Virus record (IMG/VR): IMGVR_UViG_3300044726_000200
Span: 1-41,649 of that record
Direction: 5' to 3' (one strand)
From: a virus
DNA: 41,649 bases
Under the pieces are notes generated by a model, which worked only from the letters and a program-made list of their open reading frames with translations, was not told the origin of the DNA and ran no database searches. This document shows positions 3,993 to 39,589 of this stretch, in pieces. The number at the start of each line of letters is the position of its first letter. The first letter of the stretch is position 1. A program made the position numbers and the translations under genes.

Positions 3993-4199
3993 ATGCGCGA
4001 CTTCACATACTTTGTCGATCTCAATCCGTTGTATCCCTCGAGGGGACAACACCGTTGGGCCGTGCTCTACAAAGGCGCCACGACCCGTGTAGTCGCCAGT
4101 TACACGCGGCGCCAATTCGCCGAATCACACGCGAAAGCGTGGAACGAAGCGGAACGCGACCCGTTCGCGGACACGCTCCGCCCCGAGTTGGAAGGCTGA
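3993..4199 (+). CDS. Hypothetical protein, 68 aa
   Basis: This small protein is not a family I recognise. It has an N-terminal stretch with a DFTYFVDLNP motif, a basic middle (YTRRQFAESHAKAW) and an acidic C-terminus. The start at 3993 is preceded by AGGA with 8-nt spacing in the leader AACAGGACCAAACAA, which closely matches the leader of the next gene. It is the first gene of the short plus-strand unit that diverges from the terminase genes. Its place beside the late-gene region would fit a regulator or host-takeover protein, but nothing in the sequence proves that. Confidence 0.65.
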   Translation: MRDFTYFVDLNPLYPSRGQHRWAVLYKGATTRVVASYTRRQFAESHAKAWNEAERDPFADTLRPELEG

Positions 4200-4212
4200 T
4201 ACCCCTCCCGAA

Positions 4213-4268
4213 CAACTCAAACAGTCAACCAGTCAAACAGCTCAATCAGTCAAACAGGACAAACAGTC
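4213..4268 (+). repeat. CAGTCAA/AAACAG short repeat leader
   Basis: The gap before the gene at 4269 holds three exact CAGTCAA copies (4222-4228, 4230-4236, 4247-4253) and several AACAG units. It ends in AAACAGGACAAACAGTC just before the ATG. It is rich in A and C, poor in G, and unlikely to fold, as expected for an open leader that favours ribosome loading. It may also be a protein-binding array. Confidence 0.5.
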
Positions 4269-5042
4269 ATGATCGTATACCAAGGGCCATCGATGCTGGA
4301 CGGATCGCCGATCGTCATGATCGTGACCGGCTTCAAGGGATCGTCAAACAAGAAAACCGGCGCGAAATTGCTCCAGACATACATTCTGCGCGATGACATG
4401 CATCCCGTTGAAGCATCGCGTAACGGCGCGGACCAGGCCATTTGCGGCGATTGCAAACATCAGGGGAAGCGAGATGATGATGGTACGAGGATAGAGGGCT
4501 CGCGCGAGTGCTACGTGAACCTCGGCCAGGGTGTGAGCGTTGTCTATAAATCCCACGCTCGTGATCATTATGAGACATGCGCCGAAGCGGATCTGGCCGA
4601 TACGTTCGAAGACCTGTTGATCCGCTTCGGCACCTACGGCGATCCGGCCGCCGTTCCCCAACGGATCTGGACGGCCATGGCGAGCAAGAGCGCTGGTCGT
4701 ACCGGTTATACCCATCAATGGCGTGATGTCCGTTTCGCCTGGCTGAAGGCGTACGTCATGGCCAGCGTTGATACGCCGGAAGAGGCGGCCGAGGCGCGAG
4801 CCGCTGGCTGGCGTACGTTCCGCGTGGCGCCCGCCGTTGGATGGACACGGGAAAACACCGAGTCACTGTGTCCCGCGTCGGAGAAGGGTGGCAAGGTGAC
4901 GACGTGTGACGATTGCCAGCTCTGTTCAGGAACCGAGGGCAAGGGACGCCGGAACGTCATGATCCCGAATCACTCAACCCAGGCTCGCGCCGTGAAGCGC
5001 CGTGCCGGTGTCACGTTCAGGCGGAATGGGATAGCGGCGTGA
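4269..5042 (+). CDS. Conserved phage protein with Cys clusters, 257 aa
   Basis: The protein has two cysteine groups of metal-binding type. One is near residues 59-82 (ICGDCKHQG, then RECYVNLGQG). The other is near the C-terminus (SLCPAS..., TTCDDCQLCSG) and is followed by NVMIPNHS. I recognise this arrangement from uncharacterised proteins of many phages and prophages, with no known activity. The middle region (DLADTFEDLLIRFGTYGDPAAVP) is typical of those relatives. AGGA sits 9 nt before the ATG. The gene is second in the short plus-strand unit and is followed 25 nt later by a strong terminator. A zinc- or iron-binding role is inferred from the cysteines only. Confidence 0.8.
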   Translation: MIVYQGPSMLDGSPIVMIVTGFKGSSNKKTGAKLLQTYILRDDMHPVEASRNGADQAICGDCKHQGKRDDDGTRIEGSRECYVNLGQGVSVVYKSHARDHYETCAEADLADTFEDLLIRFGTYGDPAAVPQRIWTAMASKSAGRTGYTHQWRDVRFAWLKAYVMASVDTPEEAAEARAAGWRTFRVAPAVGWTRENTESLCPASEKGGKVTTCDDCQLCSGTEGKGRRNVMIPNHSTQARAVKRRAGVTFRRNGIAA

Positions 5043-5067
5043 GCGCCGCGCGATTGATCGAAAACGA

Positions 5068-5091
5068 AAGGCGCCTTCGGGCGCCTTTTTT
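5068..5091 (+). terminator. Bidirectional rho-independent terminator
   Basis: AAGGCGCC (5068-5075), loop TTCG, GGCGCCTT (5080-5087), then a T-run to 5091. The UUCG tetraloop makes it very stable. It ends the plus-strand unit, and on the other strand it overlaps the stop of the resolvase gene, so it can serve both convergent transcripts. Confidence 0.9.
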
Positions 5092-5536
5092 ATTCATGGC
5101 GAATGATATTCCGCCAGCCATACCACGCCAGCAGCACCGCGTCCGCCTCGTCATGCGTCAAGGGTCGTTCAGGCTCTCGCAGGATCTCCCTGGCCATGGC
5201 GATCCCCGCCGCCTTGCCCTCGGCGCCTCCCCCGAGCCCGTAGGAGCCCCTCCAGACCGAAGGCTGGACATATTCCACCCTCGGATGGGCGAGGACCGCC
5301 AACGCGCCTCGGACGCCGCCGTGGGCCATCCCAAGGTTGAAAGCGGAGCGTACGCCCATCTGGGGAGAGGCGTGCTGCGCCTCGACGACAACAAGGCCCG
5401 CCGTGGTCACCATTCGCGCCAGCCCATGGCCCAGATCGATCAGCCCGACATGGCATCGGGCGATAGCGCCAGCCTCGACGCGAATAAGCGCGGCAGCGCC
5501 ATTAATACCCGGATCCACGCCAAGGATAAGGACCAT
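5090..5536 (-). CDS. RuvC-like Holliday junction resolvase
   Basis: This is a 148-aa RNase H-fold endonuclease of the RuvC type. Such enzymes cut four-way or branched DNA left by replication and recombination before packaging. The acidic tetrad is visible: LGVDPG (D8), VVVEAQ (E52) and HDEADA near the end (D129, D132). KAAGIAMAREI lies between, as in relatives. The length fits phage members. The gene is the last of the minus-strand block, lies downstream of the primase across a gap with an inverted repeat, and ends on the bidirectional terminator. The Shine-Dalgarno (AAAGA) is weak. Confidence 0.85.
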   Translation of the reverse strand: MVLILGVDPGINGAAALIRVEAGAIARCHVGLIDLGHGLARMVTTAGLVVVEAQHASPQMGVRSAFNLGMAHGGVRGALAVLAHPRVEYVQPSVWRGSYGLGGGAEGKAAGIAMAREILREPERPLTHDEADAVLLAWYGWRNIIRHE

Positions 5537-5563
5537 TATTTATCTTTCATCAATAAAGGGCAT

Positions 5564-5647
5564 GGAAGGGCGGGTCATATACAATAGTGTTCACACGCGC
5601 GCGCGCGCCCATGGGTGTAGAGCCTTTCGTATATGACCCGCCCTTCC
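5564..5647. repeat. Perfect 19-bp inverted repeat around a CG-alternating spacer (candidate origin)
   Basis: GGAAGGGCGGGTCATATAC (5564-5582) is repeated inverted and exactly as GTATATGACCCGCCCTTCC (5629-5647). The spacer is 46 bases and includes an alternating CACACGCGCGCGCGCGCC tract. The element lies between the resolvase and primase/helicase genes and is not coding in either strand. No T-run follows, so it does not look like a plain terminator. A replication origin, a recombination target or a large cruciform are all possible; I favour origin-type function from the neighbours. Confidence 0.85.
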
Positions 5648-5667
5648 CTGCCCCAAATTGCGTAATG

Positions 5668-8082
5668 TCAAAAGTCCCCAGGGGCCTTGTTCGTCTCCGC
5701 GCCTTCGCTCGCGGCCGTTGTTCCTTTCAGTTCAATTCCACTGACAATGCGATTTCCATCGGTTTTCGCGTAATAGACGCCTTTGACCTTCTCCAGCGCT
5801 CCCCGCAGGCGGCGACTGTCCGTCATTTCTTCCCTGTTCTCCCTGCACCAGTCCTCGAAGCTCCGCAGGAGCGCGGCGGGCGTGGATTTCAACCCCCATC
5901 CGAGGTTGCATCGATCCTCGATCCACCGTCCGAAGAAATCCTGCGACTCGAAATAATCATCCGTCGCCGCCGCGACCGAGGCGGGCGCGCCAAGACCGAT
6001 CCGTTGCCATTCCAGGCACCCATTGATCATCCACCGCAGGATGCCGGCCCATTCCGTTTTCAGCTTCTCGGGCAACTCCGGGTCGGGCAGCGCCGGGCGG
6101 CGGTTGAAGGGAACGATATTGAACCGCCTCCGGGTGGCGTTATCGACACCCCGCAACGCCGGTTTGTGGTTGCCGCTGATCGTCAATTTGAATTTCGGCG
6201 TGTAGGTGAAATTATCCTGGCGCATGAAGCGGGCCGTTATCGGATCTCCGCCCGTGATGGCCTTTATCCTCGCCTCGGCCCAGGTCTGGCCTTCCTCCAC
6301 TTCCGACGCCATGACCATTCGCGCCCCGTCCAACATCGCCAGATCCGTCGAATGCTTGTCGCCGCGCGTGACGACGAACGTTTCCATGGCCGCGTTCACC
6401 GCGTGATCCCCCAGGATCCCAAAGACGGTATTCATCACCACGCCCTTGCCGTTCCCGCCGTCACCGTGGATGAAAACCAAAGCGTGTTCCTGGGTGATTC
6501 CGGTGAGGCAATAGCCAAACCACCGCCGCAGAAATCCGATCATCCCCTGATCATTTCCGGTCGCTTCCCCGAGGAACTTCAGCCACAACGGGCAATCCTC
6601 CCCCATGACGGGCGCGACGGCCGTCAGGCGGGTGATGTAATCCTCGGGCCGCGCGTCCCTCGTCGTTCCCGTCCGCAGGTCGATGACGCCGGCGGGCGTC
6701 CCCAACGACCACGGGTCATTGTCCCATGCCTCGTGCGTGACCGCGAACGCCCGATCGGCCTGGGCCAGCCGCTCCACGCCCGCCGCGAACGACGCCCTTC
6801 CGGCCCGCTCCACGACGCTCTTCCCCTTCCCCACCGCCAGCCGCCGCGCCTCCGCGTGCGCCCACCGATAGGCCAGCTTCGTCTCTTCCCGCTTCCACCG
6901 CGCGCCGTCCCATAGCGACCACTTGCCGCGCGTATGATCGAACCGGAGGGCGTCCGCGTGAGCGGCCGCGAAGGCGTCCGCCGTGTTCCCCTCGGTGACG
7001 ACCCCGCCAACGCCTCCGGCGGGCCGGTTTCCGCCGCTACCACCAAAAGGCCGTTGCGATGGCCTCACCCATCCAGGCTGGGCCCTCTCCGCCTCGATCA
7101 TCAGTTTGCCGATACCGATCCGGTCGCCTGGGTGGCGCTTCCAGTGCTCCCAGTGGTCGCGGCAGTCGCTGGCACCTCTTCGGTTATGACTACCGCTCTT
7201 CGCGGACCACTTCTCGAATGCCTCCCACCCCGTCTCACTCCCCTTGCTGGCGTTCACCGTCGCCAGCCCCATGGCCATCCAGTCATTCCAGTGCAGATCA
7301 TCATTCGGGATGATCTCCAGGGCCGCGATCACGTCCTCGATATGCCCGATCAGCGACAACCCCTCGTCATCGGCGGCGCTCGCGTGCCCCTTGATCGTTT
7401 TCTTGCTCGCCCGTTCCATCAGCCATTCGACGAGCTCGCCGATATCGACCTCGCAATCCCCGACCCCCTCCCACCCCGTGACCGTGATGAACCGGGCGCA
7501 GGCGTGGAAGATCTCCACCGCCGCCCCGGTCCGTATCGTCCCGCCACCCCACCACGCCCGCTCCTCGGCGCTGTCGGGGCCCTCCAGCCCCTTGACCCAC
7601 TCTCCCACCCGTAGCCACCCCTGGAACGCCTCCGGACCGCCTCCAGGCCCTCCCAGGCGCCCGATGATCCGCATCCCGGTCCCCGAGGGCGTCACCTCCC
7701 GGTAAGCCCCTGGCGCCGCCGCCAGGATCGCCAGCGCCCACGCGTCGATCTTCCCCGTCCGCGCGTCCCGACAATGATCGAGATCGAGCGCCGCTCGTCC
7801 GAGATCTCCGACCATCCGCCATCCGACGCCGTGCGCCCCCTCGGTCTCCGCCAGCACACCGGCCACGGCGGCGTCATACCCCGCGACCCCCACCAGCCCG
7901 TTGACCTGGACCCCGATCCCCGTTCCGGGGATCACGGGAACTTTCGTCCGCGCTTTCGTCCCGTCCTTCCGCTCGATGACGCGCCAGTACCAGCAGCACC
8001 ACCGCTCGACCGCCAGCATCGCGGCCAACCCCGGTATGTCCCGCAGGTTCACGCCGCGTGTTCTGTCTTCGTTCTTCGTCAT
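5668..8082 (-). CDS. Primase-polymerase/helicase (P4-alpha/D5-like)
   Basis: This large replication protein makes primers and unwinds DNA at the fork. The N-terminal 200 aa look like an AEP prim-pol domain, with ALDLDHCRD near 99-106 and TPSGTGMRIIG near 131-141. Residues about 243-330 resemble PriCT-2 (DDLHWNDWMAMGLA). The C-terminal half is a superfamily 3 helicase of the D5 type: Walker A HGDGGNGKG at about 539-547, an acidic Walker B (MVMASEVEEG), sensor LTISGNHKP and arginine finger region ATRRRFNIVPF. I start at the ATG at 8082, which has GGGG 6 nt upstream; a GTG one codon earlier is possible. At 804 aa the gene is full length. Confidence 0.92.
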   Translation of the reverse strand: MTKNEDRTRGVNLRDIPGLAAMLAVERWCCWYWRVIERKDGTKARTKVPVIPGTGIGVQVNGLVGVAGYDAAVAGVLAETEGAHGVGWRMVGDLGRAALDLDHCRDARTGKIDAWALAILAAAPGAYREVTPSGTGMRIIGRLGGPGGGPEAFQGWLRVGEWVKGLEGPDSAEERAWWGGGTIRTGAAVEIFHACARFITVTGWEGVGDCEVDIGELVEWLMERASKKTIKGHASAADDEGLSLIGHIEDVIAALEIIPNDDLHWNDWMAMGLATVNASKGSETGWEAFEKWSAKSGSHNRRGASDCRDHWEHWKRHPGDRIGIGKLMIEAERAQPGWVRPSQRPFGGSGGNRPAGGVGGVVTEGNTADAFAAAHADALRFDHTRGKWSLWDGARWKREETKLAYRWAHAEARRLAVGKGKSVVERAGRASFAAGVERLAQADRAFAVTHEAWDNDPWSLGTPAGVIDLRTGTTRDARPEDYITRLTAVAPVMGEDCPLWLKFLGEATGNDQGMIGFLRRWFGYCLTGITQEHALVFIHGDGGNGKGVVMNTVFGILGDHAVNAAMETFVVTRGDKHSTDLAMLDGARMVMASEVEEGQTWAEARIKAITGGDPITARFMRQDNFTYTPKFKLTISGNHKPALRGVDNATRRRFNIVPFNRRPALPDPELPEKLKTEWAGILRWMINGCLEWQRIGLGAPASVAAATDDYFESQDFFGRWIEDRCNLGWGLKSTPAALLRSFEDWCRENREEMTDSRRLRGALEKVKGVYYAKTDGNRIVSGIELKGTTAASEGAETNKAPGDF

Positions 8083-8117
8083 CACTCACCCCTCTCCGCG
8101 CGCCACTCTGGACGCGA

Positions 8118-10166: not shown

Positions 10167-10363
10167 ACCTGACTGATATCGTGACCATGCTGCGGAAAAC
10201 CGATGCTTTCCACGATCCATCCGAGGCGAATGCTTTATTGACGGCGGCGGCGGACGAAGTGGCGCGGCTTCGCTCGCTTGTTCGTTTACTTGTCAAATCC
10301 GATAATCCGACGCCGCGCGACGCGGGACCTTACTGGCATCCCGTGGGCGGGGGCCGGTGGTGA
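10157..10363 (+). CDS. Hypothetical protein, 68 aa
   Basis: The start is GTG at 10157 with a strong GAGGAG 6 nt upstream. The middle is helical (ANALLTAAADEVARLRSLVR) with a leucine pattern that could form a short coiled coil. The end is Trp/Gly/Pro-rich. The stop overlaps the start of the helicase gene (GTGA). No family is recognised. It may be a small accessory of the helicase. Confidence 0.65.
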   Translation: MVVDLTDIVTMLRKTDAFHDPSEANALLTAAADEVARLRSLVRLLVKSDNPTPRDAGPYWHPVGGGRW

Positions 10364-11718
10364 CCTCCTCCCTTGCTCTCTGGGCGCATCAGCGCGCCGT
10401 CATCCCGGCTCTCGTGAAGGGTCACTTCCTGCTGCTGTGGGATCCCGGCAGCGGCAAGACCGCCTCCCTGATCCGCGCTGGCGCCGTCGTGGGCGGGCGT
10501 CAGCTGTGGGTTACCCACGCCGTGCTGATCCCCCAGACCATGGCCGACATCGCCGTCTGGCGCCCCGGCGTCCGCGTCCAGCGGATCGTCACCGGCCGCT
10601 CGATCGTCGATCCGAACGCCGATATCGTGATCGTCAGTTATGATTTGATGCGGCGGGTGGAGATCTGGAAGCAGCTCTACCGTCTCCAATGGGACTCGAT
10701 GGTGGCCGACGAGGGCCACGCCCTCGGTCATGGGAGCACGGCGCGCACCCGCGCGTTCTATGGCGCCACGATCTACAGTAAAGGCGCTCTGTTCACGCGT
10801 TCCGGCCGCGTATGGATCGCCACCGGCACGCCGGTGCTCAATTCGCCCGACGAATTGCATCCACACCTGAGCCGGCTTTTCCCCAATCTTATCCCCGATT
10901 TCGTTCATAAACAGAGATTCCTGGAGCGTTTCTGCGTCACCATCCAGAAAACATTCGGCCCGGTGATCGTCGGCGCGCGAAATGTCGATGAATTACGAGC
11001 GGTTTTGAGCAAATGCGCGTCGCGGATCAAACTCTCCGATGTCACCGACCTGCCGCCGCTCACCGTCGATACGCTGCCCGTCGAGATCTCCGCCTCCGAC
11101 CGCCGCGCGATAGAACAAACCATGACCGACGAACAACGCGCCGAATTGAACGTCGTCCTGACGCAGCTGGAGCGGACCGATGGGGATGCGGCGGAGGCAT
11201 CGTGGCAGCGCCTCCAGGCGATGCTGCTCCCGCTCGCCTCCACGCGCCGCGTGCTCGCCCTGGCGAAGTCCCGCGCCGCCGTGGATCTCATCAAATCCGA
11301 GATCGATGGTGGGGCCGATCGGATCGTCCTGTTCGGCGTCCACGTGACCGCTCTCGCCTCCATCGCCGATGCCTGCCGTGGGATGGGCGCGCGGCTTCTG
11401 ATGGGGGAAACCCCGCCCTGGATGCGTACCGGAGCGCTCGCCGCGTTCGAGGCCGGCAACGCCAAAGTTCTCGTGGCATCGGTCCGGGTCGCCGGGTTTG
11501 GCCTCAATCTCCAGTCCGCCCGGCGGGCGATATTCCTCGAGACCGACTGGACGGCGGCCTCGATCGACCAGGCCATCGCGCGCCTGTATCGCGCCGGCCA
11601 GACCCGTCCCGTCCGGGTCTCCATCCTCACGGTCGCGGACTCAATCGACGCCCGTGTCGCCGACATCGTCCGCCGCAAGCGGCGCATCGTCACTGAACTT
11701 TTGGAAGAGACAGCATGA
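10360..11718 (+). CDS. SNF2/DEAD-like helicase, 452 aa
   Basis: This is an ATP-driven DNA translocase or helicase of superfamily 2. Motif I is WDPGSGKT (about 28-35), motif II DEGH in VADEGHALG, motif III ATGTPVLNSPDE, motif V region VASVRVAGFGLNLQSA and motif VI IDQAIARLYRAGQTRPV. All of these are typical of the SNF2 branch. It is shorter than cellular SNF2 proteins and has no extra domains, as in other phage forms. The GTG at 10360 overlaps the previous stop (GTGA). It is likely to help replication or recombination with the nuclease and polymerase of the same operon. Confidence 0.88.
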   Translation: MTSSLALWAHQRAVIPALVKGHFLLLWDPGSGKTASLIRAGAVVGGRQLWVTHAVLIPQTMADIAVWRPGVRVQRIVTGRSIVDPNADIVIVSYDLMRRVEIWKQLYRLQWDSMVADEGHALGHGSTARTRAFYGATIYSKGALFTRSGRVWIATGTPVLNSPDELHPHLSRLFPNLIPDFVHKQRFLERFCVTIQKTFGPVIVGARNVDELRAVLSKCASRIKLSDVTDLPPLTVDTLPVEISASDRRAIEQTMTDEQRAELNVVLTQLERTDGDAAEASWQRLQAMLLPLASTRRVLALAKSRAAVDLIKSEIDGGADRIVLFGVHVTALASIADACRGMGARLLMGETPPWMRTGALAAFEAGNAKVLVASVRVAGFGLNLQSARRAIFLETDWTAASIDQAIARLYRAGQTRPVRVSILTVADSIDARVADIVRRKRRIVTELLEETA

Positions 11719-12263
11719 GCATCACTGTTAATTGCGTGATCGACCTGACCGAGGAGGAGCTGTTCCAGGTTCTGCTTCGTCGTCACGGCGGGGTCATCAA
11801 ATACCCCACGATCAGTACGGGACCGGAGGAGACGGCGGCGGCCGCGTCGGTTGGACCGATTCTCACGCCGGAGCAGCTCGCCAACATCGCTCGCGAAGAA
11901 GAGGAACTGGCGGCGGCTCACGCGTCGATCGACGTGGCGGAGCCCGTTGTACAGGCTCCGGTGGAACCCCCGCCTTTGCCGCCAAAGCAACCCCGCGGCC
12001 GCGCCTCGCGCGTCAACGGCGCGGCGGCGGGCGGCGAGGTCAATTCCACGCCGATCGCCTCGCCGCCGGTCAACCGCCTGGACGAGGCGTCGATGCGCTC
12101 TCTCTTGTCCAAGGTCGGCGCGGTGCATCCGCTCAAGGTCAAAGCCATCACCAATATCCTGGAAGCCCACGGCGGCAGGCGCCGCTTGTCCGAGTGCGAT
12201 CCCGTGACATGGCCCGCCATCGCCGAGGAAGCCCAGAAGATTTTGGCGGAGTATGGGGCGTGA
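11715..12263 (+). CDS. Hypothetical replication-operon protein, 182 aa
   Basis: Three parts are seen: an N-terminal region of about 45 aa (VIDLTEEELFQVLL), a proline-rich linker (about 70-120, with PPPLPPKQPRGR) and a C-terminal helical domain (EASMRSLLSKVGAVHPLKVK, then ITNILEAHGG). The C-terminal part resembles small helical domains found in phage replication operons, but I cannot name it. The ATG at 11715 overlaps the helicase stop and has GGAAGAG upstream. The flexible linker suggests it tethers two partners. Confidence 0.75.
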   Translation: MSITVNCVIDLTEEELFQVLLRRHGGVIKYPTISTGPEETAAAASVGPILTPEQLANIAREEEELAAAHASIDVAEPVVQAPVEPPPLPPKQPRGRASRVNGAAAGGEVNSTPIASPPVNRLDEASMRSLLSKVGAVHPLKVKAITNILEAHGGRRRLSECDPVTWPAIAEEAQKILAEYGA

Positions 12264-12511
12264 GTGTTCAATCTCAGATCGCCGCCGGGATTGAGCCAAA
12301 AGCAACCGGGTTTGGCGACGATACACCCTTGATGTCGATCGCCGTCAGCCTGAAGCGTATCGCGGATTGCCTTGACCCGCCCGATGTTCCGCCGCGCCTG
12401 CATGATATGGCGGAATCCATGGCCACCATGGCTGAGTTGATGGATATTATCGTCGTTCACGCGGGCGATATGGCGAGACGGTTGAACAATATAGAAAGCG
12501 CCCTGACGTGA
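12260..12511 (+). CDS. Hypothetical protein, 83 aa
   Basis: The start is GTG at 12260, overlapping the previous stop (GTGA), with GGAG 8 nt upstream. The C-terminal half is one long amphipathic region (LMSIAVSLKRIADCL, then MAESMATMAELMDIIVVHAGDMARRL) that should form a coiled coil or helical bundle. The family is not recognised. Its stop overlaps the nuclease start. The pattern suggests a small oligomeric partner in the replication operon. Confidence 0.7.
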   Translation: MSVQSQIAAGIEPKATGFGDDTPLMSIAVSLKRIADCLDPPDVPPRLHDMAESMATMAELMDIIVVHAGDMARRLNNIESALT

Positions 12512-23901: not shown

Positions 23902-24090
23902 TCAGGTAACGATACGATCCAGGAGGAGCGTCCCCATCGGCGTCACATGGACGCGCCACACGCCGCCGTCGGTCGCGCGAAAGTTGATCGCGTCGAACGT
24001 CGGAATGGGATCGGGCGGCGGGGGCGGGACCACCGCCGGAGGCGGAGTGAGGGTGAAGGGCTCCGGCGTGGATCGTTTTGGGAGTGTCAT
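23902..24090 (-). CDS. Small tail-region protein, 62 aa (paralog of next gene upstream)
   Basis: A proline-rich linker (PPPAVVPPPPPDPIP) leads to a C-terminal domain ATDGGVWRVHVTPMGTLLLD. The same domain pattern (D-G-x-x-W-R-V-x-V-x-x-x-G-T-x-L) closes the 76-aa gene just upstream, so the two are tandem relatives. The start overlaps the upstream stop (ATGA). They sit between the gp10-like tail gene and the GNAT-like gene and probably decorate the tail. Confidence 0.7.
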   Translation of the reverse strand: MTLPKRSTPEPFTLTPPPAVVPPPPPDPIPTFDAINFRATDGGVWRVHVTPMGTLLLDRIVT

Positions 24091-27117: not shown

Positions 27118-27321
27118 CTATTCTCCCGCTTCTTGTTGATCACGCGACACGAGGGCGAGCGGCGGCTGTTCCTCGGCCTGTTGTCTTGTGCATTGCTGCT
27201 GTATCGCGGCGATGAGCGGCGCGGTGACCGCGTAGGCGACCGGCGCCTGCGCGATCACGCGGAGGATCGTCTCCCAGGTCTGGGCTTCGAGGGTGATGCT
27301 GATGCGGTCGGTGGGGTTCAT
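27118..27321 (-). CDS. Small fibre-linked protein, 67 aa (paralog at 30322)
   Basis: It begins with MNPTDRISITLEAQTWETIL, nearly the same as the 54-aa protein at 30322-30486 (MTPTDKIPVTLEAQSWEQIM), and both have a matching APLIA-x-IQ-x-QC segment. Both genes start at the stop of a long fibre gene. This pairing suggests a fibre-specific partner such as an assembly helper. The start overlaps the fibre stop by one base. The C-terminus is longer and polar here. Confidence 0.7.
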   Translation of the reverse strand: MNPTDRISITLEAQTWETILRVIAQAPVAYAVTAPLIAAIQQQCTRQQAEEQPPLALVSRDQQEAGE

Positions 27322-29309
27322 CACGAGAGCCGATACAGGCCGCTGTCGCCGGGATTGCAGATCACGGCGAACCCCTGCCCGGCCGCCAGCGACGACGGCA
27401 GCCCCGGCCCAATACCAGCCGCCACGGCGGAGATCGTTAGCGCCGTGATCGCCGCGGACGTGCTGAACCGCCACTCCTGCCCGCCGGTCGAGGCGTCGCA
27501 GGTTGGGAACCTGATGGTCAGCGCCGCGAGCGTTCCCGCGGGTGTCATAATCGTGGTGTGCGTGTTCTGCGCGACGGTAACGGTGGACCCGCTGGTTGGC
27601 GTCACCTTGACTATGGCGAAGTCGCGAATGACGCCAATGTTGACGGGGTTGAGGAATGTGAACTGAGGGGCCGCCGCCCTCATGTCGAAGTATGCGACGT
27701 TCTGCCCAGACGAGCTTTTAAACACCATGTTGCTGCCGCTTCCACCAAGCACCCCGTAACCACCAGACCCATCCGTTAGCTGAAACCCAGACGGTCCCGA
27801 CACGAAACCCGCGTTCGCGCCGCTGACGATGTTGCTGTTCGGCCCGGAAATGATCGCGCCAGCGTCCATGGTGATCAGGCTGGTCCCGGACCCAATCGTC
27901 ACCCGACCGGCGGTGGGCGCCAGACTGATCGAGGGTTTGCCAGATCCGCCGTCCGCGTGATCCACCCACGTCAGCGTGACGGTGTTCGTTCCGTGTCCGT
28001 TGAATTTCGCCGCCGTGCCCATCGTGGCGCTGGCGTTGTTCACGGCGGCGGCGGCGCTTGAGTAGCCTTTGTCGAGCACCTGTAACGCGGTTGGCGTGCC
28101 CGTCACACCCGGCGTCGTCGCGCCATTCACCGCTGTTACCTTTAGGATTGCTCCTGGCACGGTGCCCTCGGTGTAACTACCATAAAGCAGTTCACCAACC
28201 TGAAACTGGTTGGCGAGATTGCCGTTCACGTAAGTCGCCGCCGAGATGAAGGAACCACCAACATCGATTGTCCCTCCCTGGTCCACCGGCTTGATCGACA
28301 GGTTGCCTACTTGTGTCTCACCCGTGCCTTTCACGACGAACCCCGGCGAGCGCATCACCTCGTTGTTGATGTGGATGTTCCCCATCTGGAACCAATCCCA
28401 CGAGGTCTGTGGCTTGATCATCGCCGGGCCAATCGTCGCCGGACAATTGTTCACTCCGACCGTGCAACCATTGCCATTGGCATAAACCTGGGGAAACGAG
28501 AACAGAAACGCGCCATTGTCTGGATCAAAGGTGGTTTCCTGACCCATTCCGCCCATGACTAACTGCGAGCGAAAGCCTGGAAGGTTCTTACCCGATGAGG
28601 CGGTCATGGACGCGGTGGATGAAGTATCCAGGCCAGGAGATTGACTGGTGACCCAAATACCATACCGCCCCTGGAACTGATTGGCGCCAGGAGTGTCAAC
28701 GTGTCCCCAGTCGGTGCCAAGTCGCGCGAACTGAGCGCCATTGCTGAGGATCGAGGCACCGCCGTGCATGACTTCCCAGTTGATCTCGCCCAGACCGCTG
28801 ACGTTCGCGAGGTAGCCGGACTTACCGGTGGCAATGGCATAGATGCTCGTGCCATCGACCTGACCAACCGCCTTGGTCGGATAGACCGACCCGCCCATCG
28901 GCGCATCAGCGGTGGCGCGTGCCTGGATCGCCATGTGGAAGCCGTTGTCAACGGTGCCGCTACCGGTCAGCAGACTACCCACGTTCAGACCTGCCCGCGT
29001 CCCGCCCGCGCCCTCATAGCCGTAGGTATAAAACAGATCCATACAACCAATGATGCCGCCACCGGGCGGGGACTTCGCCGTGTCGGAGTAGCATTGCACA
29101 CGCATCGGGGCGCTGGCCCCCGCCTCCCCGAGCCATGTCCCGGTGATCGGCCCCATATTGAATTGCAGGGGTGTGGTCAGATTGGACATGGTCCCGGCGT
29201 CGAGCGGCTTTGTCGTCAGGTGGATACCATTCATCGTCGGGATCATCGGCGCCTGCGCGTGCGCGATGATCGGCCAGAGCAGAGCCGCGAGTGTTACTGC
29301 ACGACGCAC
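27321..29309 (-). CDS. Tail fibre/spike-like protein with N-terminal signal peptide-like segment, 662 aa
   Basis: This Gly/Ser/Thr/Asn-rich, beta-repeat protein has the composition and length of a tail spike or fibre. The middle (LGEINWEVMHGGASILSNGA) and C-terminal beta-helix-like stretches (GRVTIGSGTSLITMDAGAI) are related in style to the 622-aa fibre at 30483. Unusually, the first 19 residues (RRAVTLAALLWPIIAHAQA) look like a cleavable signal peptide with an AHA site. The GTG at 29309 has GGGGG 6 nt upstream and overlaps the previous gene by 16 bases. An internal ATG (residue 22) would avoid the signal. A receptor-binding role is inferred. Confidence 0.75.
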   Translation of the reverse strand: MRRAVTLAALLWPIIAHAQAPMIPTMNGIHLTTKPLDAGTMSNLTTPLQFNMGPITGTWLGEAGASAPMRVQCYSDTAKSPPGGGIIGCMDLFYTYGYEGAGGTRAGLNVGSLLTGSGTVDNGFHMAIQARATADAPMGGSVYPTKAVGQVDGTSIYAIATGKSGYLANVSGLGEINWEVMHGGASILSNGAQFARLGTDWGHVDTPGANQFQGRYGIWVTSQSPGLDTSSTASMTASSGKNLPGFRSQLVMGGMGQETTFDPDNGAFLFSFPQVYANGNGCTVGVNNCPATIGPAMIKPQTSWDWFQMGNIHINNEVMRSPGFVVKGTGETQVGNLSIKPVDQGGTIDVGGSFISAATYVNGNLANQFQVGELLYGSYTEGTVPGAILKVTAVNGATTPGVTGTPTALQVLDKGYSSAAAAVNNASATMGTAAKFNGHGTNTVTLTWVDHADGGSGKPSISLAPTAGRVTIGSGTSLITMDAGAIISGPNSNIVSGANAGFVSGPSGFQLTDGSGGYGVLGGSGSNMVFKSSSGQNVAYFDMRAAAPQFTFLNPVNIGVIRDFAIVKVTPTSGSTVTVAQNTHTTIMTPAGTLAALTIRFPTCDASTGGQEWRFSTSAAITALTISAVAAGIGPGLPSSLAAGQGFAVICNPGDSGLYRLS

Positions 29310-30321: not shown

Positions 30322-30486
30322 TCAGTCCGTCGCCTCCGGTGTGGTTTGCCGTTGCCGCGCGCACTGGTTCTGTATCTCGGCGATGAGCGGCGCGACCACC
30401 CTGAAAGGCGCGTCGGCCAGCACGCGCATGATCTGCTCCCAGGACTGGGCTTCGAGCGTCACGGGGATTTTGTCGGTGGGGGTCAT
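30322..30486 (-). CDS. Small fibre-linked protein, 54 aa (paralog at 27118)
   Basis: It starts MTPTDKIPVTLEAQSWEQIM and matches the 67-aa protein at 27118-27321 over its full length. The start overlaps the stop of the 622-aa fibre gene in an ATGA. The predicted form is a strand then two helices (QIMRVLADAP; PLIAEIQNQCARQRQ). A link with the fibre just upstream, such as folding or assembly, is inferred from both copies having the same neighbour type. Confidence 0.7.
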   Translation of the reverse strand: MTPTDKIPVTLEAQSWEQIMRVLADAPFRVVAPLIAEIQNQCARQRQTTPEATD

Positions 30487-32351
30487 ACGATGTTCAACGC
30501 GGCGCCGTTGCGCCACACGTCACCGGCCACCAGACCAGCGGCGGAAGTCGGTAGATTGGACATGTTGATCGACCCGGCCGTGGGGTTGAGCGACAACTTG
30601 CGTCCCGCCGCCGGCCACGTCACGGTCAGGGTCAGGCCAATGCCGGAGCCGCCGAAGGTCGCGAGCGGATTGGCGGGCGTCGCTCCGACCGTCCCCGGAT
30701 AAACCAGGACACTCAGCGTCGTCACCGCGCCCGTCGCCGGATTGATCGCCGTCACCTCATACTGACCGCCGTAAGCGTCCTGGATGAGATCGCCGACGAA
30801 GTAATTATTGACCGCCGACCCCGCCCCGCCACCGCCACCAGACGCAACCGCGACGGCGCTCGCCATCTTGCCGGGGACATCGAGCGCGACGCCCGCCGAA
30901 GACGCCGTGAGCACGGTGTTCTTGACCTCCAGCACGCCGTTGCCTCGATCGACGAACCCCGGCGACCAATAGGCCGCGCCGTTCGCTTTCGTGTAGTTGG
31001 CGTAATGGAGGTCCACCCCATAGGCGCAGAGCTGCGGCGGAAACGGATCGCTGCGCCCGGTGGACATATGCGCGATTTGCGGTGCCGCGATACCAAATAC
31101 GGTGCCGTCCCGGCGGATCGACCACTCGCTGGCGACAACTATTCCGTAACGCATTTGCCCACTGGTGGGCGCGCTCTGCGATCCCAGCCCGAGAAAGGCG
31201 GAGTGCCCGCCGCCGTCGCCGCTGTCGCCACTCAGGCGGATCATCGTCGCCATGAACTTATCGTAGACCGAGGCGCCCTGAACGAACGCGCCGAGCGTCA
31301 GCGTAGTTGTCGCGCCACCACTGACCGACACAGACGGCGTAACGGTATCCTGCCCCTGCCAGTGCAGGTTTACCACGTTACCCGACCGCGTGGCGCAGAC
31401 GCGGGCCGCCTGTAGCGCGGCGTTGGCGTTGATCGCGGCGACGAGGTTATTGGCCACCATCGCCAGGGTCTGACCCGATCCGCTCACGAACGAAACGGCG
31501 ACAGGCGACCCCGTGATGACACTCGAGGCCAGCGTGATCGTCAGCGTGTCGCCCGCTGTTACCGTGCCGCCCAGCGTCACCGGACGGGTTGACCCGGCGA
31601 CACCGACATTGATCTCGCCAAGCGCGTTGGCGGAATACCAACTGCTCGCGCCGGGGAGCAAAATCACCTGCGGGTTAAGCCCATATGCGTAGCCGCGCGC
31701 GTCCAGTCCCGCGTTGGCGACGCCCGTGCCGCCGGTATTGTGCTGCATCTGCGCCCAGAACTCGCCGACGACGTGTTGTTGGTTTGTTACCGAGTCGCTG
31801 TAGTTTCCGGCTGTCGTCAGGAATGAACGCATGACAGACCGAGGCCCAATGGTGCCGGGACCGCCGAACTGATGCGTGAACTGCGCGACGGCGAAACCGC
31901 CGCCCGTGGTGTTGCGAAGGTCAGCGGTATCGCCGGATATGCTCCACTGATGCGCCACCATCAGACCGGCCGGCGCGCCCGAAAACAGCCCGGTATAGTT
32001 CGATGTGAAGAATGTCGTCGGCGAAGGCATGGTGGCGCCGAATGTGTAGGTCTGCGACGTTCCACGCAGGTATTGCGTCGTCGTGGTCTCGTAGATGCTC
32101 AGTCCGCGCGCGGTCGTGCTAAAATCGAAATAGCCTATTGATCCGATGCCAAAGTCCGGACTGCCGATGATGACTTTTGTGTTGTTCCCGCCCGACGAAA
32201 TCATCAGGTCGGCGCCGGGGGAAGCGATGAAGTCGGGACCGTGCAACGGCAGGAACGGGCCGGATATATTGTTGGCGATGGCATCGTTCAGCGCCGACGC
32301 GAACAGCGGATCGCCTTCGGACCACGGATAACCGGGGATCGCGCCGCTCAT
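30483..32351 (-). CDS. Tail fibre/spike-like protein, 622 aa
   Basis: The protein is Gly/Ser/Thr-rich and beta-repetitive, with a short N-terminal helical segment (GDPLFASALNDAIANNISG) typical of phage fibre anchors. It closes with SNLPTSAAGLVAGDVWRNG, a C-terminal motif seen also in the 68-aa gene at 29294. An internal stretch (TAGDTLTITLASSVITGSPV, then VANNLVAAINAN) resembles a domain found in carbohydrate-contacting phage proteins. It likely binds the host surface. Catalytic residues for glycan cleavage cannot be picked out by eye. It is followed by the 54-aa partner gene. Confidence 0.75.
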   Translation of the reverse strand: MSGAIPGYPWSEGDPLFASALNDAIANNISGPFLPLHGPDFIASPGADLMISSGGNNTKVIIGSPDFGIGSIGYFDFSTTARGLSIYETTTTQYLRGTSQTYTFGATMPSPTTFFTSNYTGLFSGAPAGLMVAHQWSISGDTADLRNTTGGGFAVAQFTHQFGGPGTIGPRSVMRSFLTTAGNYSDSVTNQQHVVGEFWAQMQHNTGGTGVANAGLDARGYAYGLNPQVILLPGASSWYSANALGEINVGVAGSTRPVTLGGTVTAGDTLTITLASSVITGSPVAVSFVSGSGQTLAMVANNLVAAINANAALQAARVCATRSGNVVNLHWQGQDTVTPSVSVSGGATTTLTLGAFVQGASVYDKFMATMIRLSGDSGDGGGHSAFLGLGSQSAPTSGQMRYGIVVASEWSIRRDGTVFGIAAPQIAHMSTGRSDPFPPQLCAYGVDLHYANYTKANGAAYWSPGFVDRGNGVLEVKNTVLTASSAGVALDVPGKMASAVAVASGGGGGAGSAVNNYFVGDLIQDAYGGQYEVTAINPATGAVTTLSVLVYPGTVGATPANPLATFGGSGIGLTLTVTWPAAGRKLSLNPTAGSINMSNLPTSAAGLVAGDVWRNGAALNIV

Positions 32352-33472
32352 GACCGCATCTCCGCGTCAGTGAGAACACGCGGCCAGTAAGTAATATTTC
32401 GAATGTAACCGCTCGATGATTGCGTCGGCGTTCCCGTTTGAAATATCGCATAGCCACCGGCTGGATAGCCACCCGGAACCATGACCCCGGAAACCACGGC
32501 GCTTCCGTTCGTGGAAATCCTGCCGGTTCCAGGATTGTCGTATGTTGTCGTTACCTTGGTCACCACGTTGGGCGCGACGACAACGACATCTTCCACGGGC
32601 GTGCCGCCGTTCCACTGACCGGCGACACCCGGAGCGCCATCCACGAATACCGGCGTGGGATTGTTGCCGACGCTGTTTATCTGAAGGATGCGACGTGGGT
32701 TGGTATCGACATCGAATTTGATGAACTCGGCGCGCCACGAGCCAAACGTGGGAGAGAACCACGCGCCACCAGATATGACGGGAGCGTCCAGTGCCCTGCT
32801 CGCCGAGGTACCCGTCGTTGGTATCCACGATGTGATGAACGATCCGGCCTCGACCTGCGCGTTCGTCACAGATCCCGTCACCGTGCAGGTGAGCGTCCCG
32901 GCTGTCGCCGTGAACGTCTGCGACACGCGCTGACCCGCGCCCGTTCCGACGAGCGCGCCTGTCGCGGCGCCGCTCTTGGTGATGGTCCCCGTGCCGTAAA
33001 ACGACAGCGTGTAAGCCGTCGCGGTGACCGTGACGCCCTGCGTGACGAGCGTCGCCGAGTTCAGAAACAGGTTCGTCCGCGCCTCCTCGATCAGCAGCCC
33101 GCGCAACACGCCGCCCACGTAATCCCATCGCGGCGCGTTGATCGCGGCGGTCTGGATCGTTCCGGTGCTGTCGGTGTATGTCCCGGTCGAGGCGCGGCTG
33201 AATGTGACGCCGGCGGGCATGGTGCCAGAGGACATGAAGTCGAGCGCCAGCGTGGCGCCGGCGGGGATGCCGCTGGTGACGGTGCTACCGCCGAACTGGG
33301 ACACCATCTGGCGGCTGAAATGCTTGCACCAACCGGCTGGACTGACGGGACCGATGACCTTGCCACAGGAGCGGGGCGGGACGAAGAAGCGGCAGTATCC
33401 GCATTTCTCCCTGCCCCCGGCGTCGGTATAGCGCGCGGCGCTCTTCGTGACCCGGTGGACGACGAAGCTCAT
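32348..33472 (-). CDS. Fibre-like protein with N-terminal four-Cys domain, 374 aa
   Basis: Residues about 20-55 carry four cysteines (C24, C27, C36, C49 in EKCGYCRFF, RSCGKV and GWCKHFS), a layout like small iron-sulfur (HiPIP-type) or zinc modules. The rest is a beta-sandwich/fibre region. It contains VEAGSFITSWIPTTGTSASR, a motif common in phage proteins with lectin-like folds, then SSGYIRNITYWPRVLTDAEM. The fusion of a metal-binding head to a lectin-like part is unusual. The start overlaps the adaptor stop (ATGA) and the stop overlaps the next fibre gene. Confidence 0.7.
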   Translation of the reverse strand: MSFVVHRVTKSAARYTDAGGREKCGYCRFFVPPRSCGKVIGPVSPAGWCKHFSRQMVSQFGGSTVTSGIPAGATLALDFMSSGTMPAGVTFSRASTGTYTDSTGTIQTAAINAPRWDYVGGVLRGLLIEEARTNLFLNSATLVTQGVTVTATAYTLSFYGTGTITKSGAATGALVGTGAGQRVSQTFTATAGTLTCTVTGSVTNAQVEAGSFITSWIPTTGTSASRALDAPVISGGAWFSPTFGSWRAEFIKFDVDTNPRRILQINSVGNNPTPVFVDGAPGVAGQWNGGTPVEDVVVVAPNVVTKVTTTYDNPGTGRISTNGSAVVSGVMVPGGYPAGGYAIFQTGTPTQSSSGYIRNITYWPRVLTDAEMRS

Positions 33473-36882: not shown

Positions 36883-37344
36883 TTATTGAGACAACACCGC
36901 CCCGTTGTCCAGCGGGAGAATGGCATAGCACTTTTTGGAGACCGGATCGCGCCGCGCCGTGCCGTTTTTCTTCCAGGCGGTCAGTCTCCCCGCGATAGCG
37001 CCGGCCGGCATGCCCGTTACCGTCATCAACTCCGACACGGTCAGACCGTCAGGCGCCGCCATCCGCAGGACTTCATAGAGGGAGTGCGCGTCACCCGTCA
37101 CCACGGGAGCTGGTGGAGGCGGCAGGGGCGGCACGCGGGTCCGCGCTTTTTGTCTGACGCCGCCCGACGGGTAAGGCGGGCCGCGAAAAGACATCGACAC
37201 CGGGCCAAACTCACGTTCCATTTCCAGCAACACGTCACGCCTGCGCGTGAGTGTGTTGAGGTCGTCCTGTATCTTCGCCAGTTCCTCGCGCAGCCAGGAA
37301 TGGACCACGCGCTTCGTATCCGGCTTCAGACCTTTCTTTTTCAT
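36883..37344 (-). CDS. Coiled coil plus winged-helix-like protein, 153 aa
   Basis: The N-terminal half is a coiled coil (VVHSWLREELAKIQDDLNTL, then RRRDVLLEMEREFG). A proline-rich linker follows. The C-terminal part (DGLTVSELMTVTGMPAGAIA, then LTAWKKNGTARRD) has the form of a winged helix that reads DNA. The start overlaps the scaffold stop (ATGA). A DNA-binding protein between scaffold and capsid is unusual. It could regulate the capsid promoter/leader, or bind packaged DNA. Family not recognised. Confidence 0.65.
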   Translation of the reverse strand: MKKKGLKPDTKRVVHSWLREELAKIQDDLNTLTRRRDVLLEMEREFGPVSMSFRGPPYPSGGVRQKARTRVPPLPPPPAPVVTGDAHSLYEVLRMAAPDGLTVSELMTVTGMPAGAIAGRLTAWKKNGTARRDPVSKKCYAILPLDNGAVLSQ

Positions 37345-38501
37345 CTGGCGCCACCGTTCAGCGCCGCGCGGCGCGCCGCCAGCAGCGCGGCTCCGCCCCG
37401 GACATCCGGTTTGGCCTGAAACGCCTCGGTCGCCCGCGCGATGCGCTCCGAGGGCGCCGGAGGCGGCGCCACGCCGCGCGCGGGGAGGGACGAGGACGGC
37501 GGGGCGGAGGTCTTCGCGCCCTCCACCCACCGGTCGAACAGGGCGGCCTTCATCATGGTCTTGAGGTGGTGGGGCGAGGAGAGGCCGCGCAATTCGTCAC
37601 GACTGAAACCACCTTTGTTCGTCGCCCATTCGACGATCTGCTGTTGCGCCTCCAGGCGCTGCTGGGGATCGGCCCAGAACGGCAGCTCTTTGGCGAGCTG
37701 CTCGTTGGCGGCGGCGACCGCCTGCTCCATGGCGCGGGCCTGGGCCTGACCCTGGAGGGAGTTGAGATTGAACAGACGCTGTTGCTCGGCGAGCGCGTGT
37801 TCATACTGGGCGCGTTCCCGCAGGTATTGTTGTTGATCAGTGTCGATGAGGCGCGGATCGGGCGGCTGAGGCGGATTCTGGACCATCTCCTGAAGCCGCA
37901 GCAGTTCCGGTTGGATATGCGGCAGGACTTCGGCCAATGCCCGCTGCTGCGCCTCCAGTTGCTGGCGCTGCTGGGCCAGTCCTTGCCTTTCCGTCGCCAG
38001 TTCCTGCGTTTTCACGGTGTAATCAGCCGATTTATCGGCGGCGTACTTCCGCAGCTCCGCCATGGTCCGCAATTTACGGCCCTCGATCTCGATTTCGCCG
38101 GGTAGCGGGCCGTCGGCGGGGGATGGAGGGGTCTGGGACGTGGATTCCTGGGACAGAGGGGCTGTTGGCGGGACACCAAGCGCCTGTTCCATCGCGCTGA
38201 GGGTCGATGGCGCGGGTGTCGGCGTGGTTCGGGGTGTTTGAGGTGTCGGAGGAGGTGATTTCGCCAGTTCCGCCGCCGGTGGACGCCGTTCGGGGGCCGA
38301 AGGCGGTGGTGGAGGCGGTGCTTCCGCGCGCCGCTGGCGCGAGAGCAGACGCGCCGCCTCGGAGACGGAGATCGGCGGGCGCTCGGTCGCGGGTGGCGAT
38401 ACGCCGGAATCAGTGGTGGTTGTTGGGGCCGGCGCTGGCGTGGGCGTGGCGGCCGGGGCGGGCGTGGAGGAGGGGGTTGGCGCTGATGTGGACTCGGACA
38501 T
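37341..38501 (-). CDS. Capsid scaffolding protein
   Basis: This is a 386-aa protein with a proline/threonine-rich, low-complexity N-terminal third, then a long coiled coil (QELATERQGLAQQRQQLEAQ, QRALAEVLPHIQPELLRLQE), and a helical C-terminus (RGGAALLAARRAAL). Composition, length, and position before the capsid gene fit a scaffold that guides prohead assembly and then exits. No protease motif is seen. The stop overlaps the next start. Confidence 0.78.
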   Translation of the reverse strand: MSESTSAPTPSSTPAPAATPTPAPAPTTTTDSGVSPPATERPPISVSEAARLLSRQRRAEAPPPPPPSAPERRPPAAELAKSPPPTPQTPRTTPTPAPSTLSAMEQALGVPPTAPLSQESTSQTPPSPADGPLPGEIEIEGRKLRTMAELRKYAADKSADYTVKTQELATERQGLAQQRQQLEAQQRALAEVLPHIQPELLRLQEMVQNPPQPPDPRLIDTDQQQYLRERAQYEHALAEQQRLFNLNSLQGQAQARAMEQAVAAANEQLAKELPFWADPQQRLEAQQQIVEWATNKGGFSRDELRGLSSPHHLKTMMKAALFDRWVEGAKTSAPPSSSLPARGVAPPPAPSERIARATEAFQAKPDVRGGAALLAARRAALNGGAR

Positions 38502-38503
38502 GA

Positions 38504-39589
38504 TTATCGCTCTTGTCGGTTTGGCGCGAGGAGACCGCCGCCGCCCAGCATCAGGCCGGCGAGGCCGTAGCGGCGGATGATTTCCATCGTGGCGGGATCG
38601 AAGACAACGACGTTGCGGGTGCCATGGCCCGCGCTACGGCTGTCCTGGTCGAGGTAGCGGATTCCGGGGATACCGACTTCTTTCAGCGCCTGGGAGGCGA
38701 GCGCCGCCGGGTCGCCGCTCTTCGTCGCCATCTCGCGGTTGGTCTCCAGCGCGGCCATGTAATCTTTCACCGACATCCGCATGTCGTGCGGCGGATAAGG
38801 TGTGTTTTTAAGGGCCTTGACGACATCCGGGTGCTGTTCGGAGAGGGGCTTGTCCCAGTTCAAAAACCGTTCCTGGTCCGCGTTGACCCTGACTTCGTAA
38901 ACATGGCCTTTGGTCGGCGGTATGGCGCTCAGTTTGTCCTGAAGCGCCTTGACGGCCTGTTCGTGCGGCGCGGTCGCCGCGTTTACTTCAGGGCTCATAT
39001 AATCAAAGCCCTTCGCCTCCAGGGCGGCCGCTTTTTCATTACCAGCCGCGATCTCCTTCAAAATGGCGTCTTCCACCGCTGTCTTCTCCGGCGACTGAAA
39101 CTTCGCGGCGAGCAGATCGCGATAGCGTAATCCAACCGCTTCCGCTTCTCCGGCGTAATGGCCCATACCGTAAGCCTGCCCGCCCTCGCCCGTGCCGATC
39201 GCACTGTCCCTGAACTCTCCCAACGGGTTCTTTGGCGTCGGATCGAACTTATGCGGAGAGCCGTGATACACGTTGAAAGACGGCTTGCCGCCCGACGACG
39301 TGGTGCCCATGGCCACGCCCTCGGCGGTCTGACGCGCCGCGTCCAACAATCCCCCACGCGTCGGGTGGCCGCCTTCCCAGACCTGTCCGCCTTCCCACAG
39401 ACCACGATCGATCGCGTCCCGTTGTTGCTTCGCGATGTAATCCGAGACCTGTTGGTAGACCTGGCCCGTGGCCTGGGCGAAGGCATCGGCCCGCGGATCG
39501 GACGCGAGAGGACCGCGCTCGTCGGGCGGGGGCGGGATCAGCAGCGGCTGAACAGACCGCTCGTCATCGGGGAACAGCAGGGACGCCAT
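38504..39589 (-). CDS. ADP-ribosyltransferase-like (ART-PolyVal type) protein, 361 aa
   Basis: FNVYHGSPHKFD near residues 105-116 and IGTGEGGQAYGMGHYAGEAE near 131-150 are the family signature of the ART-PolyVal domain in phage proteins, with H109 as the expected NAD-contact. GIRYLDQDSRS and TRNVVVFDPATMEIIRRY close the domain, as usual. In polyvalent proteins this domain is joined to many others, but here it is a short single-domain protein. It lies between head genes, so it may be packaged and injected to modify host proteins. That is inferred from position. Confidence 0.72.
   Translation of the reverse strand: MASLLFPDDERSVQPLLIPPPPDERGPLASDPRADAFAQATGQVYQQVSDYIAKQQRDAIDRGLWEGGQVWEGGHPTRGGLLDAARQTAEGVAMGTTSSGGKPSFNVYHGSPHKFDPTPKNPLGEFRDSAIGTGEGGQAYGMGHYAGEAEAVGLRYRDLLAAKFQSPEKTAVEDAILKEIAAGNEKAAALEAKGFDYMSPEVNAATAPHEQAVKALQDKLSAIPPTKGHVYEVRVNADQERFLNWDKPLSEQHPDVVKALKNTPYPPHDMRMSVKDYMAALETNREMATKSGDPAALASQALKEVGIPGIRYLDQDSRSAGHGTRNVVVFDPATMEIIRRYGLAGLMLGGGGLLAPNRQER

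Follow-up and report, generated by a model that had tools for sequence, protein, structure and literature searches.

An inverted-iteron element directly 3′ of a phage primase-helicase gene as a candidate replication origin

The locus and its inverted repeat

The virus record IMGVR_UViG_3300044726_000200 of IMG/VR, which was analysed over its whole length of 41,649 bases (hereafter the window), carries a long inverted repeat between two genes of the minus strand. On one side lies a P4-family (TIGR01613) primase-helicase gene (5668-8085, minus strand), whose 805-amino-acid product combines an N-terminal primase with PriCT_2, D5_N and SF3 helicase regions and is here proposed to be the initiator; it matches the D5_N, DUF5906 and PriCT_2 profiles and reaches 263 bits against TIGR01613 (cut-off 108.7). 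On the other side is a gene for a RuvC-like Holliday junction resolvase of 148 amino acids (5090-5536, minus strand; PHROG 1770, 1.6e-10). Given the minus-strand orientation of the two genes, the repeat follows the primase (on its 3′ side) and precedes the resolvase (on its 5′ side) in gene order. An earlier interpretation based on the letters of this DNA (the sequence-only reading) had placed the repeat between a primase/helicase and a Holliday junction resolvase, and both flanking genes were identified as such.

The repeat consists of two exact arms of 19 base pairs (bp), GGAAGGGCGGGTCATATAC at 5564-5582 and its reverse complement at 5629-5647, which are separated by a spacer of 46 bp (5583-5628), as that reading had described. 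The arms can be extended to 5558-5582 and 5629-5653, with 24 of 25 positions paired and one mismatch. The resolvase-side arm (5558-5582, plus strand) is composed of an outer iteron (GGGCATGGAA, 5558-5567), an inner iteron (GGGCGGGTCA, 5568-5577) and an AT-rich shoulder, TATAC (5578-5582), and the primase-side arm (5629-5653, minus strand), complementary to it at the same 24 of 25 positions, contains an outer iteron (GGGCAGGGAA, 5653-5644), an inner iteron (GGGCGGGTCA, 5643-5634) and again TATAC (5633-5629). The iteron unit of the window is 10 bp long and occurs twice per arm (GGGCAGGGAA GGGCGGGTCA). Within the spacer, an alternating purine-pyrimidine core tract of 17 nucleotides (nt) was found at 5592-5608 (CACACGCGCGCGCGCGC), in agreement with the CG-alternating tract previously noted. 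The 19-bp pair ranked first in the repeat search and is the longest exact inverted repeat in the window with a spacer of up to 110 bp; in 100 dinucleotide-preserving shuffles of the window, the longest exact arm was 11.8 bp on average and 15 bp at most. No other copy of the 19-mer arm is present in the genome at up to three mismatches, and the single 3-mismatch match to its inner 15-mer, at 24080, is within chance.

Recurrence of the element in related loci

Absence of the repeat from close relatives had been named beforehand as an observation that would refute an origin or a resolution site, and the outcome did not refute it. The 10 loci closest to the window by their primase-helicase (L003-L011 and L049) all possess an inverted repeat directly after the primase stop codon. 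The arm letters differ strongly among several of these loci (for example GGGCAGGGTAGTGCGGGGTAATAACG, CAATTCCTGCCAACTCCTGCCA, GTGCCACTCGGTGGCTGCTCATAAACGA and CGGTGACAGGGTGTGTCAGGTCA), and both arms vary in concert with pairing retained. These close relatives show the repeat to be under selection.

A wider sample was assembled from relatives of the helicase region in viral contigs and bacterial genomes, the latter mostly Alphaproteobacteria (among them Acetobacter, Roseomonas, Methylobacterium, Sphingomonas and Bradyrhizobium). The helicase region was matched by 208 of the 210 sequences searched, and 201 had enough downstream sequence, giving 186 distinct stretches, each covering the 300 bp after the primase-helicase stop codon. 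An inverted repeat with a score of at least 14 was detected in 92 of the 186 stretches versus 2 of 558 windows placed at random in the same loci and none of 186 dinucleotide shuffles of the stretches, and at a score of at least 16 the numbers were 74/186 and 0/558. Most of the repeats begin no more than 25 bp from the stop codon. An alternating purine-pyrimidine tract of at least 16 bp was present in 118 of the 186 stretches, compared with 3 of 930 windows and 6 of 930 shuffles, and the longest tract lies inside the spacer in 88 of the 92 strong repeats. When the stretches were loosely clustered into 159 groups, 73 groups had the repeat (score at least 14) and 98 had the tract (at least 16 bp).

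The sequence-only reading had offered an origin or a resolution site as the role of the repeat. According to the second proposal, a Holliday junction resolution or recombination site, the repeat would extrude as a cruciform and be cut by the neighbouring RuvC-like enzyme; a perfect repeat is capable of extruding, the RuvC-like gene is adjacent in the window, and the corresponding element of Acidithiobacillus phage AcaML1 is also adjoined by a putative polynucleotidyltransferase gene. However, the linkage is not conserved. The element is followed by the resolvase gene in the window, L004, L005, L006 and L049 but by a different gene in L003 and L007-L011, and among 97 loci with a repeat score of at least 13 and at least 700 bp of downstream sequence, a RuvC-like gene within 1.2 kb downstream was found in 19 and was missing from 78. 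In addition, a cruciform would not need the tandem 9-10-bp iterons described below. The proposed resolution site fails on this count and retains only a slight probability; the linkage data indicate that the resolvase is a neighbour only and not part of the element. The other half of the proposal, an origin, has stood up well, considering the conserved position 3′ of the primase-helicase, the inverted iterons, the co-variation with the C-terminus of the protein and the geometry of known or annotated origin elements.

Iterons, their candidate reader and the alternating core

The self-match of the arms is best at a lag of 9 in 37 and of 10 in 32 of 89 cases (69/89 together), that is, the arms in this family are tandem 9-10-bp iterons in mirror image, such as GTGACGGAT GTGACGGAT or GTAACCGAT GTAACCGAT facing its own mirror image. 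The iteron sequence varies widely among relatives, and the two arms covary.

Such maintained pairing in spite of changing arm sequence would also be expected of an RNA hairpin in the primase transcript, serving as a terminator, processing or stability element, and either strand does yield a strong RNA fold (-67 and -64.7 kcal/mol, z -8.2 and -7.1). Nevertheless, the stem is not followed by a T-run, the element has no Rfam match, and both the 9-10-bp periodicity of the arms and their tie to the C-terminal region of the protein speak against it. A selected RNA stem would also prefer G.T or A.C mismatches, whereas the 157 mismatches in 2199 arm pairs include 29 G.T and 37 A.C, with neither in excess; since there is no G-U bias, the signal is at the DNA level. 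These mismatch counts indicate that the element acts as DNA and not as RNA, and an RNA hairpin is considered very unlikely.

The most plausible reader of the iterons is a winged-helix-like domain at the C-terminus of the primase-helicase (5728-5910, minus strand; approximately amino acids 726-786), which is proposed on the basis of an AlphaFold model and of iteron co-variation. The model of residues 356-805 (74 sequences, predicted local distance difference test score 90.3) has the fold of an SF3 helicase plus a winged helix, with a strand-helix-helix-strand-strand module at residues 726-786. Its best structural match is the PrimPol of African swine fever virus (Z 32.2, root-mean-square deviation (rmsd) 4.7, 440 residues), with further matches to the SaPI5 primase-helicase 7om0 (Z 30.3, rmsd 4.6, 392 residues, tail included in the alignment) and to poxvirus D5/E5 (Z ~27). 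The comparison of protein and iteron similarities covered 98 loci out of the 101 whose repeat scores at least 13. Residues 720-800 give the best correlation with iteron similarity (r 0.39; 98 proteins). The partial correlation of the tail (722-800) given the helicase core is 0.315, a value reached by 0/500 permutations that leave shared ancestry in, and 0.32 given residues 365-460, whereas the helicase core adds 0.045 given the tail (55/500 permutations). It is likely that the C-terminal region of the primase-helicase, and not its helicase core, reads the iterons, as both the co-variation and the model suggest. In one relative, L012, the N-terminal 353 amino acids are 76% identical to those of the window protein, the C-terminus is different and lacks a D5_N match, and a different set of mirrored iterons, without a CG centre, lies a few bases after the stop codon (0/200 shuffles matched this repeat). 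This natural module swap agrees with a C-terminal reader. Primase N-termini 76-82% identical to that of the window and fused to an unrelated C-terminus were observed at L012:5001-7750 and L016:1-2423.

With regard to the centre of the element, tracts of at least 14 bp (n=133) have a median length of 20 versus a median pure CG run of 8. The 118 longer tracts are flanked by AT-rich shoulders: at 6-10 bp from the tract edge the AT fraction is 0.68 (left) and 0.58 (right), compared with 0.36-0.44 at 21-40 bp. A conserved GC-rich alternating core between inverted iterons appears to be a new feature; no CG-alternating or Z-DNA origin of this kind was found in the literature as covered by titles and the starts of abstracts, a scope that leaves subscription journals mostly outside. 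Formation of Z-DNA or a cruciform by the repeat, to which the sequence-only reading considered it prone, is possible. In a large group of phages and integrated elements from GC-rich bacteria, the origin of an SF3 primase-helicase may have exchanged the usual AT-rich opening zone for a conserved alternating CG tract, with the change of shape selected and supercoiling coupled to helicase loading. According to this tentative and rather doubtful proposal, alternation is kept while the letters drift, so selection would act on a change in DNA shape (Z-DNA or easy unstacking); if true, Z-prone DNA would here have a defined job in a natural bacterial setting.

In L007 and L011, the central segment looks reversed relative to 5583-5628 of the window, with GTGAACACTAT shared in opposite orientation, as though recombination between the arms had inverted the spacer, which is suggestive only. 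The inverted alignment between the window and L007 has a score of 18 (reached by 13/2000 shuffles). Of eight pairs tested, inversion was also supported for L004-L008 (21/2000) and L004-L007 (40/2000) and was unsupported in the other five; it is not family-wide, and with a shift limit of 5 no family-wide signal was obtained either (mean 19.25 in the same and 19.03 in the inverted orientation).

The telomere-resolution site telRL of phage N15 is a palindrome with a CG-alternating centre. A site of this kind would account for a CG-alternating centre within a near-palindrome and might fit the partly reversed centre of L007. It is scarcely credible here, however, considering that no match to the ResT/TelK catalytic family (PF16684) was found in the record (which may be incomplete), that the palindrome is interrupted by a 46-bp spacer and that the arms vary freely among relatives.

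Known replicons and the case for an origin

Several known replicons offer a comparison. Replication of pRN1 depends on a stem-loop of 100 bp that lies 3′ of orf904, and the same paper proposes a stem-loop origin of this type for the Bordetella phages BIP-1/BPP-1 (PMC4234260, 2014). The present family has in common with pRN1 a primase, a helical domain, an SF3 helicase and a winged helix, as well as a stem-loop directly 3′ of the replication gene in which pairing is kept and sequence is variable (PMC4234260). However, pRN1 is stated there to lack an iteron structure, and the part of that paper available to us mentions no alternating CG centre, whereas this family has iterons as its stem arms and a conserved alternating tract between them (PMC4234260). 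That paper regards the stem-loop as the signal, while the arms are read here as protein-binding sites (PMC4234260). Because of the iterons in the arms, the likeness to pRN1 concerns layout and likely mechanism, and not membership. BPP-1 itself carries inverted iterons of 9 bp, with an alternating centre of 14 nt, ~465 bp 3′ of the primase (0/200 shuffles).

The crr element of P4 likewise lies directly 3′ of the alpha gene, and each of its 120-bp copies contains an annotated pair of type I repeats, 9 bp apart, facing two on the opposite strand (0/200 shuffles matched the inverted repeat). It differs in that its spacer is AT-rich with a longest alternating run of 7, that the crr unit is duplicated with a separate ori and that alpha has a primase of bacterial (Toprim) type (PMC4234260). 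P4 ori1 was considered as a further example and dropped, its best inverted repeat being at chance level (43/200 shuffles). Streptococcus phage Sfi21 possesses a 302-bp origin / phage-inhibitory element directly 3′ of its primase, a region that its record annotates as the origin of replication and that is so described in the literature (PMC6356513). This element also has inverted tandem iterons of the TTAGTTACT type around a low-complexity spacer (repeat matched by 0/200 shuffles), although the spacer is AT-rich, in an AT-rich phage. A named isolate, the phage AcaML1, has CTGACGGGT iterons inverted around CGTACACGCGCGCGCGCGTA, located between the primase and the putative polynucleotidyltransferase gene mentioned above (0/200 shuffles); its iteron sequence differs, and the element is unannotated in the stretch examined. 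SaPI origins have an AT-rich middle, and the SaPI5 primase-helicase (7om0/7ola; 7pds) has the same fold of the helicase and C-terminal domain. Of 11 further named records, 9 have a repeat of this kind (reached by 0 or 1 of 100 shuffles), which in MeaningOfLife falls within an annotated gene. An alternating tract of at least 16 bp is present in only two of the 11, pMNOD03 and RcapNL, so the CG core is limited to a subset; phages such as phi105, which shares the mirrored-repeat geometry after its primase, and Acinetobacter phage 4316 have AT-rich centres. In pMNOD03, a 40-kb Methylobacterium plasmid, the element (L218:16263-16400) lies 3′ of a P4-family primase with a ParA gene ~4 kb away, and the gene list for the 31 kb examined names no further replication initiator.

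That ParA gene, together with a gene for the terminase large subunit ~2.4 kb from the repeat in the window, could point to a packaging (pac) or partition site, or to another protein-binding site, that happens to lie beside the replication gene. This is also quite improbable, since the iterons track the C-terminus of the primase-helicase and the same layout is found in P4 crr and the Sfi21 origin; the primase-helicase is the constant neighbour as well, but only because the loci were selected by it.

Taken together, we propose, with a probability of roughly 86%, that the repeat is the replication origin of the phage, or its essential cis core, recognised by the adjacent primase-helicase. Three features of an origin used by a P4-family primase-helicase are found here, namely an adjacent initiator gene of the family, iterons in a cis element and a C-terminal winged helix in the predicted model. 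Binding of the iterons by the initiator and a cis requirement for replication are predicted, with indirect support from co-variation. In a related case, the C-terminal domain of SCCmec Cch2 binds to repeats located downstream of the gene that encodes it (PMC7581432, 2020).

Several observations weigh against parts of this proposal. In the parts of that paper available to us, Cch2 binding needed direct repeats and not inverted ones (PMC7581432). The 94 remaining stretches of the 186 fall below the strict repeat threshold (score 14); some of them carry less symmetrical iterons on both sides, and others, e.g., L023, L074, L115 and L184, have nothing clear after the stop codon. Such a repeat is missing after the primase in two of the 11 named records, Bridgette and a Streptomyces plasmid. 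The co-variation test is uncorrected for phylogeny. AT/TA steps, counted in 119 distinct tracts, are commoner than expected (257 vs 207, standard deviation 10) and not avoided; selection for Z-DNA energy alone was rejected because this excess is the opposite of expectation. Finally, GC skew changes sign at ~4000-5700, inside a block of same-strand genes, with a polarity that is terminus-like and unlike that of an origin. As the signal near the element is also confounded by gene content, GC skew was dropped as support for an origin.

If the repeat is an origin, the primase-helicase would bind the two pairs of 10-bp iterons via its C-terminal winged-helix domain, as co-variation and the predicted fold suggest. 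As the iteron pairs face each other, two SF3 rings would, by analogy, assemble head to head over the centre and melt the AT-rich shoulders that flank the alternating CG tract, which might help, more speculatively, by taking up or giving off torsional stress. Once the strands are open, the primase domain would prime them. What seems to be new is the union of the stem-loop and iteron views over many loci, together with the conserved alternating core. A general search rule may also be derived, i.e., mirrored iterons just 3′ of the gene for a primase-helicase of this family, under which origins are predicted in many phages and prophages and in some plasmids that have none annotated. The pairing of iterons with the C-terminal winged helix offers a candidate recognition code, and the system is suited to asking whether a Z-prone tract can act as a bacterial origin opening element.

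Elsewhere in the window, the frames at 30483-32351, 32348-33472, 37341-38501 and 38504-39589 have no Pfam match, and a 662-amino-acid frame (27321-29309) has no PHROG match. An SNF2-type helicase gene (10357-11718, plus strand) overlaps an opposite-strand open frame of 473 amino acids (10905-12326) that has no PHROG match and is probably spurious. The gene set also includes an SU10-type portal, a terminase, a family A-like DNA polymerase, a single-stranded DNA-binding protein, a PD-(D/E)XK exonuclease and an ejection protein.
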